40,033 bases of DNA, from positions 1-40,033 of IMG/VR virus record IMGVR_UViG_3300032282_005081; one strand, written 5' to 3'. This DNA comes from a virus. The notes beneath the pieces are model-generated. The model saw nothing but the letters and a program-made list of their open reading frames with translations. It was not told the origin of the DNA and searched no databases. This document shows, one piece after another, positions 27,995-36,399 of the stretch. Each line of letters begins with the position of its first letter. The stretch's first letter is position 1. The translations under genes and the position numbers were made by a program.

Positions 27995-28012
27995 CGAAAA
28001 ACATAATTTCTT

Positions 28013-28267
28013 CTAAAACCAAGCAGCCCTTTCGACGACCTCAGCCTGACCGCCGTCCACGATCTTAAAGGTTTGCCACGCCGCAGCGAACCCCTGCTCT
28101 TCCTTTAGCTGCGCCTCAGCAGCCCCCAAATCGTCGAAGGACCACACCAGCGTCCAGAGGGTGTCAGGGTCGATCCCGTTGATCCGATAGGATGCCTTGT
28201 GCTCCGGAGGCAGCTCCTCGTGCTTCACGATCCGGTAGCGAGAGATCCGTTCCTTGTAGGTGTCCAT
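28013..28267 (-). CDS. Small phage protein of unknown function
   Basis: 84 residues from the ATG at 28267, which has GGAGGGCTGAGAGC upstream. It includes SYRINGIDPDTLWTLVWSFD and a LGAAEAQLKEE helix followed by FKIVDGGQAEVVERAAWF. The ikDgG...ER.aWF ending recurs in other phages, but no function is known. It directly follows a 77-residue gene in the same unit. Codons are GC-rich, unlike the genes to its left. Confidence 0.65.
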   Translation of the reverse strand: MDTYKERISRYRIVKHEELPPEHKASYRINGIDPDTLWTLVWSFDDLGAAEAQLKEEQGFAAAWQTFKIVDGGQAEVVERAAWF

Positions 28268-28271
28268 GCTC

Positions 28272-28505
28272 TCAGCCCTCCACCGAGTTGAGACGAGCCA
28301 GGCAGTCGTCACGGAAGCGAGTCAGGGAGTCGATGGCGTCCTGCATGCTACCCTTCTGACCGCACCGCTTGTCGACCGCGAACTTCAGGGCGACCTCGAG
28401 ACAGCCGATGTAGGCTTCCATGGTGTACTTCGTCTTGCGCGTCAGGATCAGGTTGAAGATCTCGTCCTGCAGTTCCTTGATGACGTCGAGCTTGGTGATG
28501 ATCAT
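28272..28505 (-). CDS. Small phage protein of unknown function
   Basis: 77 residues (MIITKLDVIKELQDEIFNLI then YTMEAYIGCLEVALKFAVDK and GSMQDAIDSLTRFRDDCLAR). It is mostly helical and has two Cys that are not in a metal motif. The ATG follows AGAGGTT. It is the first gene behind the promoter at 28534-28562. No family recognised. Confidence 0.65.
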   Translation of the reverse strand: MIITKLDVIKELQDEIFNLILTRKTKYTMEAYIGCLEVALKFAVDKRCGQKGSMQDAIDSLTRFRDDCLARLNSVEG

Positions 28506-28533
28506 TGGAAGAACCTCTTTTTTCTACTCAGGC

Positions 28534-28562
28534 ATTGTACCGTAGTCAGCGAGGAAAGTCAA
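28534..28562 (-). promoter_or_regulatory. Early sigma-70-like promoter
   Basis: TTGACT - 17 nt - TACAAT, 29 nt before the 77-residue gene. Confidence 0.8.
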
Positions 28563-28571
28563 GGATTTTTT

Positions 28572-28787
28572 TCACCTGCGGCGGTACCGGTAGGCGACCT
28601 CGGCAATCGCCGCCTCTTCGGCGAGGCGATTGTTCTCAGCCGGGCTGTAGTCGCCGAACTGAGCCAGCTTCTTGAGGGTGGAGAAGAAAGCCATCTCCGC
28701 GACCTTCGCGGCGGCGAGACGATTCTCGGGGCGGATCGTCATGATGAACTTGACCATGGAAGCGGGAGCGGCGGGGAGCTGGGCCAT
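28572..28787 (-). CDS. Small phage protein of unknown function
   Basis: 71 residues (MAQLPAAPASMVKFIMTIRP then ENRLAAAKVAEMAFFSTLKK and NNRLAEEAAIAEVAYRYRRR). A short hydrophobic start is followed by two Ala-rich helices and an Arg-rich tail. The ATG lies at the end of a 31-nt leader that is repeated word for word in front of another gene at 30731. No family recognised. Confidence 0.65.
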   Translation of the reverse strand: MAQLPAAPASMVKFIMTIRPENRLAAAKVAEMAFFSTLKKLAQFGDYSPAENNRLAEEAAIAEVAYRYRRR

Positions 28788-28815
28788 TTCAGAGTCCTCA
28801 TCGTTTCAGTAAGAG
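28785..28815 (-). repeat. 31-bp leader repeat, copy 1
   Basis: Identical to 30729-30759. It spans from the ATG through the ribosome site (GAGGAC) to just before the -10 box, so both genes share the same 5' untranslated region and start context. It ends CTCTGAAATG. Confidence 0.9.
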
Positions 28816-28816
28816 T

Positions 28817-28845
28817 AGTCTACCGCGATTCGACCCAGAAGTCAA
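28817..28845 (-). promoter_or_regulatory. Early sigma-70-like promoter
   Basis: TTGACT - 17 nt - TAGACT. The -35 box shares its TGA with the stop codon of the 64-residue gene upstream. Confidence 0.8.
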
Positions 28846-29036
28846 GGACGAAGTTGACTGCCAATGAAAATAATTACAACTGCTGCAGCTAGGGAGGCAT
28901 AGCCTGGTCCAGTCATTCCGACACCGATCATACCAGCGCCAGACCAGACCAGAGCTCCTGCCGACAGAGCCATTGAGACCATAGACAGTGCAACAGCTCG
29001 TCGGCAGCGACGGAAAGCGAGAGAAGGATGGAGCAT
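28842..29036 (-). CDS. Small membrane protein
   Basis: 64 residues. An Arg-rich start (FRRCRRAV) is followed by two hydrophobic segments: ALSMVSMALSAGALVWSGAG and GYASLAAAVVIIFIGSQLRP, with GMIGVGMTG between them. It has a GC-rich codon style. The ribosome site before the ATG is weak. Its stop codon lies in the -35 box of the next promoter. Upstream is a block of GGCC repeats at the end of the previous gene. Confidence 0.55.
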   Translation of the reverse strand: MLHPSLAFRRCRRAVALSMVSMALSAGALVWSGAGMIGVGMTGPGYASLAAAVVIIFIGSQLRP

Positions 29037-29052
29037 GATAGGTGATCCCGGC

Positions 29053-29379
29053 CTAGGCCGGCCGGCCGGCCGGGAACACGCCCGGCCCGCGACCGAAGAA
29101 GTCGCGGTACTCGCTGTCGCTCATCAGCTCTTCGCAGTAGGCAAACAGATCGCCTTCTTGAGTCAGATACCAGCGATTCTCACCACGCTTGTACACTGCG
29201 CGACCCATGACGCTATCCCAGGCGTCCCAGTACCACTCGGCGTCCGGACCCTCGCGGAGGATAGCGATATCGTCGTCGTCGGCCTCAAATCCCCACAGAG
29301 TCACGTCAAAATTCTCAACGAAATTCTGGGGGATGTACACGCCACGGGAGTCGGACAGGAGGATTTCGATGCCAGACAT
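29053..29379 (-). CDS. Conserved phage protein of unknown function
   Basis: 108 residues from the ATG at 29379, which has AAGGAACTCCTT upstream. It contains IEILLSDSRGVYIPQNFVEN, then EWYWDAWDSVMGRAVYK with WYLTQEGDLFAYCEELMSDS. The DAWD.V...A......W.L.Q.GDL.A pattern recurs in small phage proteins, but no activity is known. The last ten codons run through a GGCC repeat. It is the first gene behind a strong promoter. Confidence 0.7.
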   Translation of the reverse strand: MSGIEILLSDSRGVYIPQNFVENFDVTLWGFEADDDDIAILREGPDAEWYWDAWDSVMGRAVYKRGENRWYLTQEGDLFAYCEELMSDSEYRDFFGRGPGVFPAGRPA

Positions 29380-29406
29380 AAGGAGTTCCTTTGTTTTAAC
29401 AAGAAC

Positions 29407-29435
29407 AGTATAGCGCAGTCGGAGAGAGGAGTCAA
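29407..29435 (-). promoter_or_regulatory. Early sigma-70-like promoter
   Basis: TTGACT - 17 nt - TATACT, 28 nt before the 108-residue gene. Confidence 0.85.
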
Positions 29436-29475
29436 GCACTTTTTTGTGACGTCGAAAGAAAAAAGCGCACAGTCA

Positions 29476-29499
29476 GAGCGCCTATGGCCATAGGCGCTC
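29476..29499. terminator. Perfect 24-nt palindrome, probable terminator
   Basis: GAGCGCCTATGG and its exact reverse complement form a 24-nt perfect palindrome, 2 nt after the stop of the minus-strand 65-residue gene. A T-run (TTTTTT) follows on the minus strand after another 11 nt. A near-copy of it lies inside a coding region at 31282-31304. Confidence 0.6.
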
Positions 29500-29501
29500 C
29501 T

Positions 29502-29699
29502 TCAACGCTTACTAATACACGTGCCGTTGGTGCCGTTGTTGTATGTTGGCACCCAGCTGCCTCCGTTGTCGATACACTGCTTGAGTGTTTCGTAATACTG
29601 CTTGTTGTTTTCGCTTACAACATATGTGCAACCTGCAACTGTGCTGCCAACCATTATAACCATCGACAGCGCCGCAACAATTACTTGTGTAGTATTCAT
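29502..29699 (-). CDS. Small exported or membrane-anchored protein
   Basis: 65 residues from the ATG at 29699, which has GGAGGAGTGAC upstream. The N-terminus MNTTQVIVAALSMVIMVGST then VAGC fits a signal peptide, and the AGC could be a lipobox. Two further Cys follow (LKQCIDNGGSW, GTCISKR). It is the last gene of the unit that starts at 30731. Confidence 0.65.
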   Translation of the reverse strand: MNTTQVIVAALSMVIMVGSTVAGCTYVVSENNKQYYETLKQCIDNGGSWVPTYNNGTNGTCISKR

Positions 29700-29700
29700 G

Positions 29701-30012
29701 TCACTCCTCCACCACGATCCATTCATAGTCATAAGGCTCCATCACCGTCTCAGCGCCGTCATACTCGTCGATGCGGTACCGCTTGCCGGCAAGCTCCTTG
29801 ACGCGCAGGTCAGCAAACCTACCGCTAGCCTCTCCGCCCAACTTCTCCACCACAGCCACCAAGTCGGGATCGTGTCGCGGTAACTCACCATAACGGTAGT
29901 CGTCCGGATCAAATTCGATGCCCATGGCTTCCTTGAGAGCACTAAGCTCTGCAAGGGCTTTGGCAGACAGACCGAAACCACCGAAGCACGAATTGTACAC
30001 TACCTTAACCAT
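29701..30012 (-). CDS. Conserved phage/bacterial protein (YNxCFGGFGLS type)
   Basis: 103 residues from the ATG at 30012, which has AGGAAGG upstream. The start MVKVVYNSCFGGFGLSAKAL, then RHDPDLVAVVEKLGGEASGR and YRIDEYDGAETVMEP, is a known conserved family in phages and bacteria with unknown function. Both the N-terminal Cys-Phe-Gly-Gly-Phe and the IDEYDG.E motif are intact. Overlaps are minimal. Codons are GC-rich. Confidence 0.75.
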   Translation of the reverse strand: MVKVVYNSCFGGFGLSAKALAELSALKEAMGIEFDPDDYRYGELPRHDPDLVAVVEKLGGEASGRFADLRVKELAGKRYRIDEYDGAETVMEPYDYEWIVVEE

Positions 30013-30014
30013 CT

Positions 30015-30269
30015 TCAACCTTCCTGAGTTACATCAAAGCAATAGATCGCGCAGTCTGCAGCCAACACGCCGAACTGGGTTGCGTCGTGGTAGAGACTGA
30101 AGTATACGTCGTCCTCCACGTCTATACAGAAGCACTGACCATATACCTTGAGCATGTACCTGGTAAATTTATCTAGAGCCTTCTGGTCCTCCTCAGACAA
30201 GCCGCTCTCGTCACCGTTTACCAGAGCAGAAGCCCAGTGTATCGGGAGCTCGTACTTTTCCAGTTCCAT
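30015..30269 (-). CDS. Conserved phage protein of unknown function
   Basis: 84 residues from the ATG at 30269, which has GGAG 9 nt upstream and overlaps the stop of the preceding gene (TAATG). It contains YELPIHWASALVNGDESGLS then EEDQKALDKFTRYML and SLYHDATQFGVLAADC. The HWASALVN.DESGL.EE pattern is like short conserved phage proteins (DUF6926-like). The family name is uncertain and no function is known. Confidence 0.7.
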   Translation of the reverse strand: MELEKYELPIHWASALVNGDESGLSEEDQKALDKFTRYMLKVYGQCFCIDVEDDVYFSLYHDATQFGVLAADCAIYCFDVTQEG

Positions 30270-30496
30270 TACTGCAACTCCAAAGAAGTGTCGTACCACC
30301 GATCAGTCTCTGAGGGTTCATCCTCTTCTGAGGGTTCATCCTCATCCTCGGACTCGAAGAGGAAGTCGTTGACTTCCGCCATCCGCTTGACGTCTCGGTC
30401 CTCTAGCCAAGCCAGAGCAGCCGCAGCTACAATCTTGGGATCCAGGAATCCCTCGTCCATCAGTTCCAGCAGCTTGCAGGTATACTCGCGCTTCAT
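30269..30496 (-). CDS. Small acidic protein of unknown function
   Basis: 75 residues (MKREYTCKLLELMDEGFLDP then KIVAAAALAWLEDRDVKRMA). The C-terminal part is Glu/Asp/Ser-rich (EDEDEPSEEDEPSE), built from a short DNA duplication (GAGGGTTCATCCTC twice). The LDP..VA...L.WL.E.DV..M pattern resembles short phage proteins. It overlaps both neighbours by 1 nt. Confidence 0.65.
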   Translation of the reverse strand: MKREYTCKLLELMDEGFLDPKIVAAAALAWLEDRDVKRMAEVNDFLFESEDEDEPSEEDEPSETDRWYDTSLELQ

Positions 30497-30588
30497 TAGC
30501 GGATCACTCCCAGTGCGGCCAGGGAGAACACCCCAGCCGAGATGAAAACAATGACGAGAACCATTCCACGTTCAAAGATCGTATCCAT
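30496..30588 (-). CDS. Thirty-residue single-span membrane peptide
   Basis: 30 residues (MDTIFERGMVLVIVFISAGV then FSLAALGVIR) from the ATG at 30588, which has AGGAGGAGATGGTCTG upstream. The ATG overlaps the stop of the preceding gene (TGATG). One hydrophobic span takes up two thirds of it. Function unknown. Confidence 0.6.
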   Translation of the reverse strand: MDTIFERGMVLVIVFISAGVFSLAALGVIR

Positions 30589-30731
30589 CAGACCATCTCC
30601 TCCTGGGCTTCGAGGCTGAACTCGTAACGGTCGAGCCAGTCGTTGAAGTCGGCCAGGAACTGCAGTGCCTCGTCGTCGGAGACCTCGTAGCCAGCCATTG
30701 CATTCACCCACTCGCGATCCATCTGAGTCAT
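30588..30731 (-). CDS. Small acidic protein of unknown function
   Basis: 47 residues (MTQMDREWVNAMAGYEVSDD then EALQFLADFNDWLDRYEFSL and EAQEEMV). It looks like a short helical protein. Its leader is the second copy of the 31-nt repeat, and a strong promoter precedes it. It begins a six-gene unit that runs to the palindrome at 29476. Confidence 0.65.
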   Translation of the reverse strand: MTQMDREWVNAMAGYEVSDDEALQFLADFNDWLDRYEFSLEAQEEMV

Positions 30732-30759
30732 TTCAGAGTCCTCATCGTTTCAGTAAGAG
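30729..30759 (-). repeat. 31-bp leader repeat, copy 2
   Basis: Identical to 28785-28815, from ATG back to near the -10 box. See copy 1 for content. Confidence 0.9.
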
Positions 30760-30760
30760 C

Positions 30761-30789
30761 AGTATAGCGTAGTGGGTGGAGGAAGTCAA
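30761..30789 (-). promoter_or_regulatory. Early sigma-70-like promoter
   Basis: TTGACT - 17 nt - TATACT, 30 nt before the 47-residue gene. Confidence 0.85.
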
Positions 30790-30835
30790 CAACTATCTTA
30801 GCGAAAATCCAAAAAAGATGAAATAACGTCTCTCG

Positions 30836-30889
30836 TTGTGTTAGAGCTCGGTAAACGGGCAATGACCCGTCAATCGTCCTCTAACACAA
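30836..30889. other. Structured non-coding element, possible small RNA
   Basis: An 11-bp outer stem (TTGTGTTAGAG with CTCTAACACAA) encloses a 5-bp inner hairpin (ACGGG/CCCGT). It lies in a 260-nt gap between a terminator and the promoter at 30761. No reading frame fits. The strand of any transcript is not clear. Confidence 0.5.
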
Positions 30890-30906
30890 GCTCTCCCCTC
30901 GTCTCT

Positions 30907-30952
30907 AAAAAAAGTGAATCAGATCAAGGCTTTATACCCCGATCTGATTCGC
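30907..30952 (-). terminator. Rho-independent terminator
   Basis: On the minus strand, GCGAATCAGATC and GATCTGATTCAC pair over 12 bp (one G-U) around a 15-nt loop and are followed by seven Ts. It ends the single-gene unit at 30992. Confidence 0.9.
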
Positions 30953-30991
30953 TGAAATATGCTGTAAAATCAGTCGCTTAACAATTGCTTA

Positions 30992-31489
30992 TCAAATATC
31001 CACGCCCAGACCCTTAACTTCGTCGCGAGTCAGGAAGGTAGGATGGTCGTCGTCCATCCGAAATTCCTTCTTGGCCTTTTCGTCGTCTTCCTTCGTGGTG
31101 TCAACCACGCGACGAGTCTTGAGTTTCGCGGCGACTTCCCGCATGCGCTTCAGATTGGCTTCCTTGATGGCAGCGACCTCTTCAGCGGTCTTGATCGGCT
31201 TATCCGCCTTCGGTGCCTTCGGCGCCTTGACCTTTTCAGCCAGCTCGGGCGTCGCCAGACGCTTCACCGTCCGCTCGCGGGGAGCGCCTACGGCTATGGG
31301 CGCTTTCGCTACCGCGACGAGTGCGCCAGGGGCGACGCCTTCCTTCACGCACCAGCGATACCAGGTCTTGCCGTAGCCTGGCTTGCACGGGAGATCGCGT
31401 TCGATGATCGCGCACACTTCGAACATCGGCTTATCCTTGTTCGCGGTCATGAGAGCGATCACGCGAGACGTCTTGGTGTCCTTAGCCAT
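30992..31489 (-). CDS. Lys/Ala-rich phage protein of unknown function
   Basis: 165 residues from the ATG at 31489, which has AAGGGCTCTCCC upstream. The N-terminal 60 residues look folded (SRVIALMTANKDKPMFEVCA and GYGKTWYRWCVKEG), similar to small phage helical domains of the type that read DNA. The rest is Lys/Ala/Glu-rich and probably disordered (EKVKAPKAPKADKPIK). A GAGCGCCTA..GGGCGCT element codes part of the linker (APIAVGAPRER) and matches the palindrome at 29476. DNA or RNA binding is inferred from charge only. Confidence 0.65.
   Translation of the reverse strand: MAKDTKTSRVIALMTANKDKPMFEVCAIIERDLPCKPGYGKTWYRWCVKEGVAPGALVAVAKAPIAVGAPRERTVKRLATPELAEKVKAPKAPKADKPIKTAEEVAAIKEANLKRMREVAAKLKTRRVVDTTKEDDEKAKKEFRMDDDHPTFLTRDEVKGLGVDI
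31282..31304. repeat. Intragenic near-copy of the 24-nt palindrome
   Basis: GAGCGCCTACGGCTATGGGCGCT differs from 29476-29499 at a few positions, in phase with a coding sequence. Given here for comparison. It may be a small mobile hairpin. Confidence 0.5.
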
Positions 31490-31520
31490 TGGGAGAGCCC
31501 TTTCCGTTTCAACAAGATGG

Positions 31521-31549
31521 AGTATACTGGGGTTCAGAGGAGAAGTCAA
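31521..31549 (-). promoter_or_regulatory. Early sigma-70-like promoter
   Basis: TTGACT - 17 nt - TATACT, 32 nt before the 165-residue gene. Confidence 0.85.
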
Positions 31550-31564
31550 CACTTTTTTTGTGGG

Positions 31565-31717
31565 TCAGTCAAGATTTTTGTAATGTTGACTCGCCCACCG
31601 ATCAACAGCTATGATTTCGCGGTCGTACTGTTTCTGGTCGATCTCGCCTTTCATCAGGAGGGTATCCAGCCGGTCGACCCTCCGCTCAACAGCTGCCTCG
31701 ATCTGGTCTTCGGTCAT
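31565..31717 (-). CDS. Small charged helical protein
   Basis: 50 residues from the ATG at 31717, which has AGGAGTGGCGCTG upstream. Sequence MTEDQIEAAVERRVDRLDTL, then LMKGEIDQKQYDREIIAVDR. Residues 5-45 look like two helices with a turn (MKGEIDQKQYD), the style of small helical hairpins. The ATG overlaps the stop of the gene before it. Function unknown. Confidence 0.65.
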   Translation of the reverse strand: MTEDQIEAAVERRVDRLDTLLMKGEIDQKQYDREIIAVDRWASQHYKNLD

Positions 31718-31941
31718 CAGCGCCACTCCTTGTAATCTCCCGTCAGCCCGTTGTCCTCGTATCCGGCCATATATGCTTTCCATTCGAAGGAGCCGAATTC
31801 GGGCTTCACTATCTTAGACTGATGAGTCGCGCCGACGAAGTAGTGAGGAGAGGCAGCTCTCCGGTAGTATCTATCGGCCGACCCACGGTCGTAGGGTCCA
31901 CCATGTCGCTTGTCGTAGCTAGTAGACGCTAGTCGCTTCAT
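31717..31941 (-). CDS. Conserved small phage protein (YDRGSADxYY type)
   Basis: 74 residues from the ATG at 31941, which has GAGGAAACTGA upstream. HGGPYDRGSADRYYRRAASP with HYF, and later EWKAYMAGYEDN, is a motif I know from many phage and some bacterial proteins of about this size. The E..AY..GY end recalls ribosome modulation factor-like proteins. The function is not established. Confidence 0.75.
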   Translation of the reverse strand: MKRLASTSYDKRHGGPYDRGSADRYYRRAASPHYFVGATHQSKIVKPEFGSFEWKAYMAGYEDNGLTGDYKEWR

Positions 31942-31975
31942 TTCAGTTTCCTCGTTAGCGTTCATCGTAGTAGCA

Positions 31976-32005
31976 ATGCTACCTCAACCAAAGGCGAAAA
32001 GTCAA
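31976..32005 (-). promoter_or_regulatory. Early sigma-70-like promoter (weaker)
   Basis: TTGACT - 18 nt - TAGCAT, about 35 nt before the 74-residue gene. It is less perfect than its neighbours in both spacing and -10 box. Confidence 0.6.
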
Positions 32006-32963: not shown

Positions 32964-33487
32964 GCCAAAAAAATGGAGGCGGAACAAAATAAATCTGTTG
33001 ACTTTTTCGGCCAGCTGAGGCAAGATTGATGCCTTCATTGCGGAGAACGAACCGGCGGCGGAAAGATACTACAAACGTTACCAACGAAACTGCAGTAGTT
33101 CGCAACGAAACCACAAAGGTTACCAACGAAATCTTTTCGTTCGTTCCAAAAATGGTTTCGAAGGGAAAGAATCGGTTTCGTATAGAACAAATTTGGTTTC
33201 CTTTAGAAGGATCTAGTTCCGTATAGAAGGATTTCGGATCGTTCGCAACGAGTCAGTTTCGTTTTTACAGAGTTTCGAAGCTCCGACAGAACGTTTTGGC
33301 TCGTTACCGAGATGTGCGGCACATCGACACAGCATCGATGCGCGACACATCGACACAGATACCAGAGACATCGAGCGACTAGCGGCAGCGACTAGCGGCT
33401 AACATCGCCCACATTTCTCTCCAGCGATTTAAAATCCCAATCAAAATCCCACATTTCAATAGTAAATTTCAATCGATAGCGAAGCGA

Positions 33488-33508
33488 CTAGCGTCTAGCG
33501 TCTAGCGT
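33488..33508. repeat. Tandem 7-bp repeat CTAGCGT
   Basis: Three perfect copies. The related GCGACTAGCG occurs four times between 33370 and 33500. Confidence 0.85.
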
Positions 33509-33554
33509 CAGCGATTGATGGAAGGTTGTCTTAGAGACGCAATAGCATCAAGAC

Positions 33555-33599
33555 AGACCAAAGGTCGACAGACCAAAGGTCGACAGACCAAAGGTCGAC
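33555..33599. repeat. Tandem 15-bp repeat AGACCAAAGGTCGAC
   Basis: Three perfect copies. Each contains the inverted repeat GACC-AAA-GGTC, so each copy could bind a dimeric protein or form a small hairpin. Confidence 0.9.
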
Positions 33600-33613
33600 C
33601 GACTGGTCCGAAA

Positions 33614-33708
33614 GTTGGTAACGAAGTTGGTAACGAAGTTGGTAACGAAGTTGTTCTAAGGATTGGTCAACCGACTGGTCCGAAGTTGGTAACGAAGTTG
33701 GTAACGAA
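33614..33708. repeat. 12-bp repeats GTTGGTAACGAA in two blocks
   Basis: Three tandem copies at 33614-33649 and two at 33685-33708. Each block is preceded by CCGACTGGTCCGAA, so the whole block is duplicated. Inverted forms (GTTACCAACGAA) occur at about 33077 and 33119. Confidence 0.9.
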
Positions 33709-33714
33709 GTTAAT

Positions 33715-34320
33715 CTACTTCTTCCCAGAATACAACATTTCAGCAGCAACATAGATTGTTATCTTAGCTGATTCTAGGTCTTCTGGTTGCTCTTTCCATC
33801 CAACAGTAATCTGACCAATGAACGTACTCGGATCAGGGGGAATGCTTATTCTGCATGTATAATTAATATTCTTATCTTTATATACAAACCCAATGAAGCT
33901 TTGTGGTTTGGTATATGCACCACATGGCATGTTGCCACCCATGAGAGAGATGACGTCTTTGTTGTTCTCTACATTCTTAGTAAACAGACCAACGTCATGA
34001 TCATCATATGTTCTGATTCTACCCTCATCTCTGATGAATAGGTATACCAGCTTCCTTGTGTTCAGTATAGGGTTTACCTCAAAGATTGCAACTAGATCAG
34101 CGTTGCCTCTCTTGACAATGAAGTTGGCTGCTTCCTCATACTTACCATTCATTCTTGGGAGTGCCTGTTGCGCTCTATACGACGCCATGAATGCATCCTT
34201 CTCAGTGTAAACAAACCACCCAGAAAGAAGCATAATACCCACAATGAACAAAACAAATAACCTAAACGGACTCTCGCCGACCCATGTTAATACTGAAAGT
34301 AATAGCTCCTTTACATTCAT
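33715..34320 (-). CDS. Membrane-anchored protein of the uptake operon
   Basis: 201 residues. Residues about 18-38 (SPFRLFVLFIVGIMLLSGWF) are one membrane span, and the remaining 160 residues should face the periplasm. They contain two Cys (MPCGAY, NYTCRIS) that could pair. No family recognised. The ATG overlaps the symporter stop (ATGA), so it is the third gene of a coupled operon. It may support the transporter or bind its partner protein, as inferred from context. Confidence 0.7.
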   Translation of the reverse strand: MNVKELLLSVLTWVGESPFRLFVLFIVGIMLLSGWFVYTEKDAFMASYRAQQALPRMNGKYEEAANFIVKRGNADLVAIFEVNPILNTRKLVYLFIRDEGRIRTYDDHDVGLFTKNVENNKDVISLMGGNMPCGAYTKPQSFIGFVYKDKNINYTCRISIPPDPSTFIGQITVGWKEQPEDLESAKITIYVAAEMLYSGKK

Positions 34321-35570
34321 GTATTCTCTTCCCTATCACAGACAAATGAACTCACAGCAACATTACCATATACATGAGAAGCAGTGCGAATCATATCCAT
34401 AATAGGGTCAACAACAATCATTAGAACAATAATGGCCTCGTGCGGGAGCATAAGCAAATCACACACAATAGAAACCGTGGCAACCGTCAATACACCAGTC
34501 GTTCCCGCCGAAGCAAGACCAGCAAGTACCGAACCAAATATAACAACAACAAATCCCCCCACTCCAAGACTTACTCCATAAACGTTGGCAATAAAAATCG
34601 TCGCCACAGCATAATACGCTATACTACCAATACGGTTTACCGTAAAAGAAAGCGGAACCATCAACTCTACCGCACCCTTGTTAAATCTAAGAGATGTCAA
34701 TGACTCCTGCGCATATGGAATACAAGCAAGAGAACTCCTAGATGATACTGCAACAATAAGCGTCTCCTTGACAGAACGAATAACACTCACAATAGAACTC
34801 TTGCTTCTAATAACAAGAACAGCAGTTGATACTAAAATAATAATCAAACCAACCAATGCCTGCTGGTAAATAAAATCAATCATCGTGAGGAATATACCAA
34901 CACCAACCTTTCCTACCTGAGATGATATCATTGCAAATAATGCAAATGGTAGAAAATAATTAAGAAACTTAAAGATCGCAATTGATGCCTCTTGGACTGC
35001 ACGAAGACAATCGACGATCATCTGCTGACCGGCATTCTTAACGAACCCAAGAGATATACCAAAGATCAAACAAAATATAACTACCTTCAGAGACTCTCCA
35101 CCATTCAAAGAGGAGAAAATGTTCTCGGGAATAAACTTGTTGAAAATAGCAAATGGGTCTGGCTTCCTTACCTCTGGCTGAGGACCAAATAATGTTACCT
35201 CAAGATCAGAAGCTCCCGAATCCTTTGAATTGATAATGTTACCAAATGACTCCATCTTTGATGATGATACGTCGCTCGGCATCAATGTAACTGTCACAAC
35301 ACCAATAGCAGAAGCGAGAATCATTGATGCAATAAATCCAACTATGATCTTCCTAATCATTCCTGCAGAATCTTCCTTCTGAAGGAGACTAACAACACCA
35401 ACAAGGATTGTTGCCAATAGAAAAGGAAGAACAACAACCTTCAATAAACTAAGATATACTGAACCAATAAACTCTAGGTCGGCTGATGCTGATGGATAAA
35501 ATACTCCCATCAATACACCAAAAATAATTGAGAGGAATATAGTGATTGGGTTAACGAGAATCTTCTTCAT
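34317..35570 (-). CDS. Dicarboxylate/amino acid:cation symporter (SDF family)
   Basis: 417 residues with at least eight hydrophobic spans. Features of the DctA/GltP family are seen in order: PFLLATILVGVVSLL (TM2), SSRSS at 276-280 in the HP1 hairpin, NRIGS at 312-316 in TM7 where NMDGT is usual, AGLASAGTTG at 350-359 in HP2, and DPIMDMIRTASHVYGN (388-403) in TM8. The TM8 Asp and Arg that help choose and bind the substrate are kept. The altered TM7 motif suggests that cation coupling or substrate differs from the usual types. It follows the binding-protein gene by 1 nt. Confidence 0.9.
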   Translation of the reverse strand: MKKILVNPITIFLSIIFGVLMGVFYPSASADLEFIGSVYLSLLKVVVLPFLLATILVGVVSLLQKEDSAGMIRKIIVGFIASMILASAIGVVTVTLMPSDVSSSKMESFGNIINSKDSGASDLEVTLFGPQPEVRKPDPFAIFNKFIPENIFSSLNGGESLKVVIFCLIFGISLGFVKNAGQQMIVDCLRAVQEASIAIFKFLNYFLPFALFAMISSQVGKVGVGIFLTMIDFIYQQALVGLIIILVSTAVLVIRSKSSIVSVIRSVKETLIVAVSSRSSLACIPYAQESLTSLRFNKGAVELMVPLSFTVNRIGSIAYYAVATIFIANVYGVSLGVGGFVVVIFGSVLAGLASAGTTGVLTVATVSIVCDLLMLPHEAIIVLMIVVDPIMDMIRTASHVYGNVAVSSFVCDREENT

Positions 35571-35571
35571 A

Positions 35572-36399
35572 TTAGATACCAGTCATGCTTCTATACATCG
35601 AAATCAGCTTGTTCACACTAATGTCGTTGTGGTTGTTCTTAATGATCATATCAACGATAGAAAGCAAATGAGTGCTCTTCCAATCAACACAAGCAGCAAT
35701 GTAATCAGAGGAATCGGAAATGATTACGGTCTTTGTTGCAAGAGATGCCTCTGGTCTCTCAAAAGCAATCTTCTTAATCTCCAAATCGTCTCTGAATCCA
35801 GCAGAATACTTTCCAGAAATAACACCATTAACAATGGTCCCCCAGTTCTTCTCTGGAACATATGTGGCCTTGGGGAAATTAATCCTTGCAAATGTATCAT
35901 ATGATGACCCGCCGATAAAGGCAATGCTGCCATCAAAATTCTTAATTACCTCATGAGGCTCCTTGCCGACAGATTTGGAAGATAACCAAACGCGATTGAT
36001 TACCATTGCTTGCTTGAGCTTTGCATAAGGAACAGAAAATCTCACTATGTTGGCTCTTGGACCAGTAATAGACAACTTTGAAATGCCAATGTTTGCCTTG
36101 TCTGACTTTACCTGATCAACAACATCTGAAAATGTCTTGGCGTCTCTACGAAACTCAATTGGAACATCTAACATCTTAGCCACAGCATGAGCAATAGAAA
36201 CGTCAACGCCAGCAAACGTGGAATCTTTCGGAAGGTTTCCATAGAAAGGAAGGTTGTCGAATGAAGTCATTGCAACAACTAACTTACCGTTCTTCTTTAT
36301 CTCTTCAATGTCAGGAGGAATAGAACTGTCAGACAAAGCAGGAAAGGATATTAAAGAAAAAGCGGAACCGGCAATAAAAGATCTCTTTGATATATTCAC
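35572..36399 (-). CDS. Periplasmic solute-binding protein (SBP_bac_3 type)
   Basis: 275 residues from a GTG at 36399, with AGAGGA upstream. An N-terminal signal (MNISKRSFIAGSAFSLISFP, cut near ALSDS) is followed by a typical family-3 amino-acid-binding fold: KLVVAMTSFDNLPFYG, FAGVDVSIAHAVAKML, VDQVKSDKANIGISK, NIVRFSVPYAKLKQAMV and GSIAFIGGSSYDTFA. Such proteins usually feed an ABC transporter, but no ABC genes are seen here. The next gene is a secondary symporter. The ligand is not known. Confidence 0.88.
   Translation of the reverse strand: MNISKRSFIAGSAFSLISFPALSDSSIPPDIEEIKKNGKLVVAMTSFDNLPFYGNLPKDSTFAGVDVSIAHAVAKMLDVPIEFRRDAKTFSDVVDQVKSDKANIGISKLSITGPRANIVRFSVPYAKLKQAMVINRVWLSSKSVGKEPHEVIKNFDGSIAFIGGSSYDTFARINFPKATYVPEKNWGTIVNGVISGKYSAGFRDDLEIKKIAFERPEASLATKTVIISDSSDYIAACVDWKSTHLLSIVDMIIKNNHNDISVNKLISMYRSMTGI

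Follow-up and report, generated by a model that had tools for sequence, protein, structure and literature searches.

A recurrent phage cassette pairs an amino-acid-binding protein and an SDF-family transporter with a T4 holin T homologue: a possible route to lysis control

Why would a phage encode a periplasmic binding protein, a membrane transporter and a one-span membrane protein as three tightly coupled genes? The question is raised by IMG/VR virus record IMGVR_UViG_3300032282_005081, whose 40,033 nucleotides make up the whole stretch of DNA analysed here (designated as the window). The record encodes T4-type baseplate wedge proteins, a DNA end protector, RNA ligase 1 and polynucleotide kinase, and it is part of a T4-like phage; an origin of the window as a bacterial fragment is ruled out by these T4-type genes. 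An initial annotation, made from the sequence alone, had placed three tightly coupled ORFs at 33715–36399; the ORFs proved to be intact and their coordinates exactly as claimed. The features of the locus are as follows.

35572–36399, minus strand: type-3 solute-binding protein of 275 aa with an N-terminal signal sequence (SBP; GTG start; PF00497, 53 bits)
34317–35570, minus strand: SDF-family (GltPh/DctA fold) membrane transporter of 417 aa (SDF; PF00375, 218 bits)
33715–34320, minus strand: T4-holin-T-like one-span protein of 201 aa (TM201; from an AF2 model, Foldseek and hhalign)
33483–33711, no strand assigned: short tandem-repeat arrays with 7-, 15- and 12-nt units, immediately 3' of TM201

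In the window, SBP and SDF are separated by 1 nt, and SDF and TM201 share a 4-nt ATGA overlap. The family assignments of the initial annotation held, with SBP_bac_3 at 53 bits (cut-off 26.4) and SDF at 218 bits over 401 residues (cut-off 27.9), and so did its description of the third product as a one-span protein of 201 aa with an outer domain, the AF2 model of which consists of one TM helix and a periplasmic domain. HMMER found no Pfam family for TM201. Relatives of all three proteins are present in PHROGs, and each is filed under 'unknown function'. Beside the cassette, several short tandem-repeat arrays span 33071–33711 and separate it from a block at 28000–32000 with a GC content of 0.50–0.57, compared with about 0.33 to the left and 0.40–0.44 to the right; this block is possibly a foreign insert or an assembly join.

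Whether the three genes belong together was examined with the SDF protein as a query against IMG/VR, which gave 73 loci (62–74% identity) on contigs of up to 524 kb. SBP lies upstream of SDF in 68/68 phage loci with room, and TM201 lies downstream of SDF in 67/67; because some contigs are near-duplicates, the counts over the 73 loci are not all independent. The order SBP-SDF-TM201 is thus found in all of the 73 related contigs that have room, and this recurrent order rules out an arrangement by chance. The gaps between SBP and SDF are mostly −4 to +21 nt, in most loci SDF and TM201 have overlapping frames (exact starts are uncertain), and the genes flanking the cassette vary from locus to locus. 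Strong purifying selection on SBP, SDF and TM201 is indicated by median dN/dS values of 0.07–0.09 among 46 distinct protein sets. In the same sets, the distance matrices correlate at 0.94 for SBP-SDF, 0.74 for SBP-TM201 and 0.72 for SDF-TM201, with permutation maxima of about 0.4. In the literature searched, which concerned phage racemase, symporter and holin combinations, no phage cassette of this make-up is described; what is new is the combination, each of its components (a T-type holin, an SDF protein, an SBP and a racemase) being of a known kind.

Two further observations were made on these contigs. The 524-kb contig IMGVR_UViG_3300027749_002876 (G001) carries two different cassette copies, L013 and L072, and since L013 appears indistinguishable from the copy that the 171-kb contig of L014 carries, G001 may be a join of two phage genomes. 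Directly 3' of the cassette in L043–L047, a porin-like gene of the Gram-negative type was recognised by eye (e.g., L047:7629–8534), which is possibly host-derived.

In most relatives, the cassette has a fourth member, namely a racemase of the Asp/Glu/cysteate type, which lies 3' of TM201, mostly directly, in 55 of the 63 phage loci with room. A scan for the racemase only gave 67 new loci, and TM201 is upstream in 64 of them. The protein scores 133 bits with PF01177, 168 with TIGR00035 asp_race (cut-off 93) and 212 with the CuyB cysteate racemase model (cut-off 190); its catalytic cysteines, C82 and C192, are invariant in 12 relatives, and it shows no sign of export. In the window, the tandem repeats occupy the position where the racemase gene sits in most relatives, and a PF01177 match is absent from the whole 40 kb of the record, itself a fragment. 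The racemase is also missing in L002, L003, L007, L016, L024, L025, L052 and L059, whole contigs included, these being fragments as well.

The identity of the third protein is central to the function of the cassette. In phage T4, the moment at which the infected cell bursts is decided by the holin. T4 holin T begins with an amphipathic helix, which makes the hole, and further comprises a single TM, a bridge helix and a periplasmic domain with a regulatory role; RI is the secreted periplasmic partner of T (PMC12162936, PMC11413866, PMC8385771). TM201 is a distant homologue of this protein, as judged from profiles and a predicted structure. Its AF2 model (pLDDT 88) has helices H3–15 and H18–53, the latter being the TM that continues as a long helix, and then a mixed alpha/beta domain, so that it displays the topology of a T holin: a short N-terminal helix, a single TM, a bridge helix and a periplasmic globular domain (cf. 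PMC12162936). The periplasmic domain is GAF-like, and C133 and C156 within it are invariant. In the PDB, Foldseek matched the model best to T-RI complexes (6psk, 6px4 and 6pxe), namely to the T4 holin T periplasmic domain within them (E 1.4e-5 for 6psk_T; TM 0.64–0.68 on target for the T-RI matches), and T-RI complexes hold ranks 1, 2, 3, 5 and 7; GAF domains come next with similar scores, and the BFVD matches include proteins named holin or T holin. When the TM201 family was aligned by hhalign with T holins of T4-, T5- and Vibrio-type phages, the match (Prob 96.1%, P 3.4e-9) was colinear over 191 columns, covering the whole length, and all reversed, column-shuffled and unrelated controls gave 1.5% or less.

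Sequence identity between TM201 and T is about 14–17%. The T-holin HMM phrog_860 gave marginal results with single TM201 proteins (E 0.035 in one member), hhalign against the single T4 T sequence gave 1.5%, and a direct HMM search with TM201 gave no match among PDB sequences and Pfam. The identity of TM201 was thus settled by diverse profiles and the fold search, not by single-sequence searches. As to the residues F22 and R34, which are essential on the cytoplasmic side of holin T, the TM helix starts with a basic residue (R/K20) in 77/77 TM201 sequences, and F22 has no clear counterpart. A canonical T holin (phrog_860) was not found in 16 whole cassette contigs, which carries little weight since these are fragments.

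The genomic context of TM201 relatives points in the same direction. The nearest stand-alone relatives (43–45% identical) occur without SBP, SDF or racemase. Lysis genes around them were called from clusters with identified representatives: among 27 loci with downstream ORFs, a PF11351 3TM holin is next to the TM201 relative in 19, and an endolysin is nearby in 24 (17 of peptidase M15, 6 of GH108 and 1 of GH19). In Vibrio phage IKEMa6-1, the TM201 relative overlaps a lysozyme gene, whereas Cronobacter phage S13 and Citrobacter phage Ci1 each have a distant relative on its own. Several cassette contigs carry a second TM201 paralogue, which may be the true holin there. In MW202825, L125, L126 and L127, the paralogue overlaps a gene for a protein of 90–114 residues with a signal-like N-terminus. 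Small cysteine-containing, probably secreted proteins overlapping TM201-paralogue genes are encoded at the following positions.

L125:4646–4990
L126:4602–4946
L127:4621–4902
L076:9570–9842

No PHROGs or Pfam family was found for these small proteins; inspection by eye makes them candidate RI-like antiholins, which would form a T/RI-like pairing with the paralogue.

SBP is of the amino-acid type, judging from its residues and modelled fold. The best PDB matches of its AF2 model (pLDDT 86) are amino-acid-binding proteins, R115 (in ITxxR) and D204 (in RDD/RDE) are invariant in 22 relatives, and the arginine aligns with that of AbpA/ArgBP. We take R115 and D204 to be the residues that hold the amino-acid ligand. 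Genes for an ABC permease or ATPase are absent from the neighbourhood in the window, and by inspection none recurs among cassette neighbours; with no such gene alongside, a binding-protein-dependent secondary transporter is plausible. The PDB matches of the SDF profile are aspartate/glutamate transporters. With respect to the symporter residues, the loss of which the initial annotation had considered, the outcome is divided: in a motif table with E. coli GltP and DctA, the TM8 substrate motif D..DM.RT is kept as in GltP within a full-length PF00375 fold, whereas N(M/L)DG in TM7 is replaced with NRIG in the window. The position of the TM7 Asp is I, L or V in aligned phage SDF relatives, and bacterial SBP-linked SDFs have LLRIG or a similar sequence there. 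Given the loss of this aspartate, ordinary cation symport by SDF seems doubtful. A D to N change in TM8 was also considered as a lost Na+ site and was rejected, because E. coli GltP and DctA share the N.

When genome contigs were scanned with a profile of the phage SDFs, a single bacterial locus was recovered, and the genome search was then widened. SDFs of the phage-cassette subfamily are rare: with the thresholds applied, they occur in about 1% of genomes. SBP is upstream in all examined bacterial loci with an SDF of this subfamily, and TM201 is absent from all bacterial SBP-SDF pairs examined. The SBP-SDF part is therefore not phage-specific, since such pairs are also found in bacterial chromosomes. 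In several Burkholderiales (L097, L098, L100, L291 and L292), the set SBP-SDF-racemase-SDF2 lies inside type VI secretion clusters marked by VgrG, TssK/VasE, DotU, ClpV and DUF4280; L099 has the same type VI secretion cluster set without the racemase. T6SS-b of Paraburkholderia phymatum carries SBP-SDF-racemase-SDF2 (Bphy_5989–5992), for which its authors suggested a sensing role (PMC8356804); among the literature searched, this was the sole account of the cellular module. The shared set would fit a module that alters D-amino acids in the periplasm and thereby makes peptidoglycan resistant to lysis that is premature or due to superinfection, but the racemase lacks a sign of export, SBP is a binding protein and the cassette contains no wall-editing enzyme, and we consider such envelope protection highly improbable.

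Two other bacterial loci are of a different kind. In a lake Burkholderiales MAG (L090:8284–13227), a second set, SBP-SDF-SDF, adjoins the phage-like SBP-SDF pair and sits beside a gene for a cyclic-nucleotide-gated MscS-type channel. At L289:3067–5533, an SBP-SDF pair lies within an apparent ATP synthase operon in a small genome (about 0.9 Mb).

The initial annotation had proposed a hybrid transporter in which TM201 serves as a scaffold, or a third subunit like DctQ of TRAP, docking SBP on SDF. The pairing of SBP with SDF stands, since the two are adjacent in the phage and checked bacterial loci and co-vary closely (r 0.94). The role given to TM201 does not: although the three genes are strictly linked in phages and the periplasmic domain of TM201 could bind SBP, bacterial pairs do without TM201, both profile and fold show it to be homologous to T4 holin T, and the stand-alone relatives closest to it reside in transporter-free lysis cassettes. 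We regard a scaffold as very improbable. The occurrence of SBP-SDF(-racemase) in bacteria without TM201, and of TM201 relatives in phages without SBP-SDF, means instead that the cassette joins two modules, and the fact that they are so strictly linked in phages suggests control of TM201 by the amino-acid module.

The main rival to control of lysis is a nutrient operon with a lysis gene as its passenger. SBP and SDF would import an acidic amino acid, often in the D-form, the racemase would yield the usable enantiomer, and the product would feed phage protein and nucleotide synthesis, with TM201 merely co-travelling in a late operon. Bacterial SBP-SDF pairs are widespread without TM201, the racemase is adjacent in phages and some bacteria, the ligand residues of SBP are intact and the TM8 substrate residues of SDF are kept, all of which suit uptake. 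The altered TM7 motif speaks against ordinary ion-coupled uptake, and TM201 overlaps or nearly overlaps SDF in every complete phage locus despite differing flanks, which is unlike a passenger, as this should sometimes be lost or moved. We judge this rival to be rather unlikely, yet to deserve serious consideration.

Our preferred reading, held tentatively and at somewhat less than an even chance, is that the three genes are the central part of a phage cassette for lysis control, SBP-SDF-TM201(-racemase), in which a periplasmic amino acid gates lysis. TM201 would be the T4-holin-T-type membrane protein, with its GAF-like periplasmic domain as the regulatory part, and SBP would be a soluble periplasmic amino-acid receptor from the same operon, taking the place of the secreted antiholin RI of T4. 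SDF would carry the same amino acid, probably aspartate-, glutamate- or cysteate-like, over the inner membrane, and in cassettes with a racemase this enzyme would interconvert its enantiomers in the cytoplasm. Lysing neighbours, starvation, or the racemase and transporter that the phage itself encodes might set the periplasmic level of the amino acid; a change in this level would alter the state of SBP, which would hold or release TM201, and the hole for endolysin exit would thereby be triggered or delayed. The genes with their order and conservation, the relationship of TM201 to holin T, the amino-acid-type SBP and the racemase are observed; in this scheme, we infer the contact between SBP and TM201, the ligand identity, the direction of transport and the sign of control. 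Several points count against lysis control: single TM201 proteins match the T-holin HMM marginally, the second TM201 paralogue of several contigs may be the true holin, the presence of SBP-SDF(-racemase) in bacteria without a holin implies that its primary job may be transport, the co-evolution of SBP with SDF (0.94) is tighter than that of either with TM201 (0.72–0.74), and the racemase is missing from the window and eight other loci with room.

A bolder form of lysis control, in which an acidic amino acid (perhaps in the D-form) is made by the racemase, moved by SDF and sensed in the periplasm by SBP, which acts directly on the T-type holin, is unlikely in our estimation; if true, it would provide the first case of a holin gated by a ligand, as well as a new form of phage communication or environment sensing. 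Still less probable is a signal between cells, whereby D-Asp or D-Glu from the racemase exits via an uncoupled SDF and is sensed by the SBP of neighbours, delaying or synchronising lysis. Parts resembling a synthase, a transporter, a receptor and an effector do lie within one operon, both catalytic cysteines of the racemase are invariant and the lost TM7 Asp fits a non-concentrative flux, but the idea is without precedent, and in the window and the eight other loci lacking the racemase the signal must come from elsewhere.

What feeds into T4-type holins is a long-standing question, and RI, believed to be a sensor of periplasmic DNA, is to our knowledge the only well-studied input. Here, dozens of phages keep a homologue of holin T locked to a complete module for amino-acid binding, transport and racemisation. 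If SBP controls TM201, a defined small molecule could serve to read and switch lysis timing, and the presence of the same module in type VI secretion clusters suggests that one sensing/transport unit may serve two cell-puncturing machines. The SDF proteins, always with a binding protein and without the usual coupling aspartate, also point to an unrecognised transporter class.

The cassette resembles several known systems in part. As in T4 T/RI, a protein with the topology and periplasmic fold of T is encoded alongside a secreted periplasmic protein; unlike in T4, a transporter and a racemase are added, and the secreted partner is not RI or a homologue of it but an amino-acid-binding protein of the SBP_bac_3 family and fold. 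The lysis cassettes L178–L207 (TM201-like protein, GTA_holin_3TM, endolysin) share a TM201 homologue at 43–45% identity, whereas SBP, SDF and racemase are all absent from them. The phage SDF has the full-length fold of GltPh and of E. coli GltP and DctA, together with TM8 D..DM.RT as in GltP, but differs in its obligate SBP gene neighbour and in NRIG in place of TM7 N(M/L)DG. TRAP and TTT systems likewise combine a binding protein with a secondary membrane transporter, whereas the membrane part here is SDF (PF00375, GltPh fold), not DctM/DctQ or TctA/TctB. The T6SS-b set of P. phymatum has SBP, SDF and an Asp/Glu racemase in the same order as the phage cassette, but it lies in a type VI secretion cluster, includes a second SDF gene and lacks TM201 (PMC8356804).
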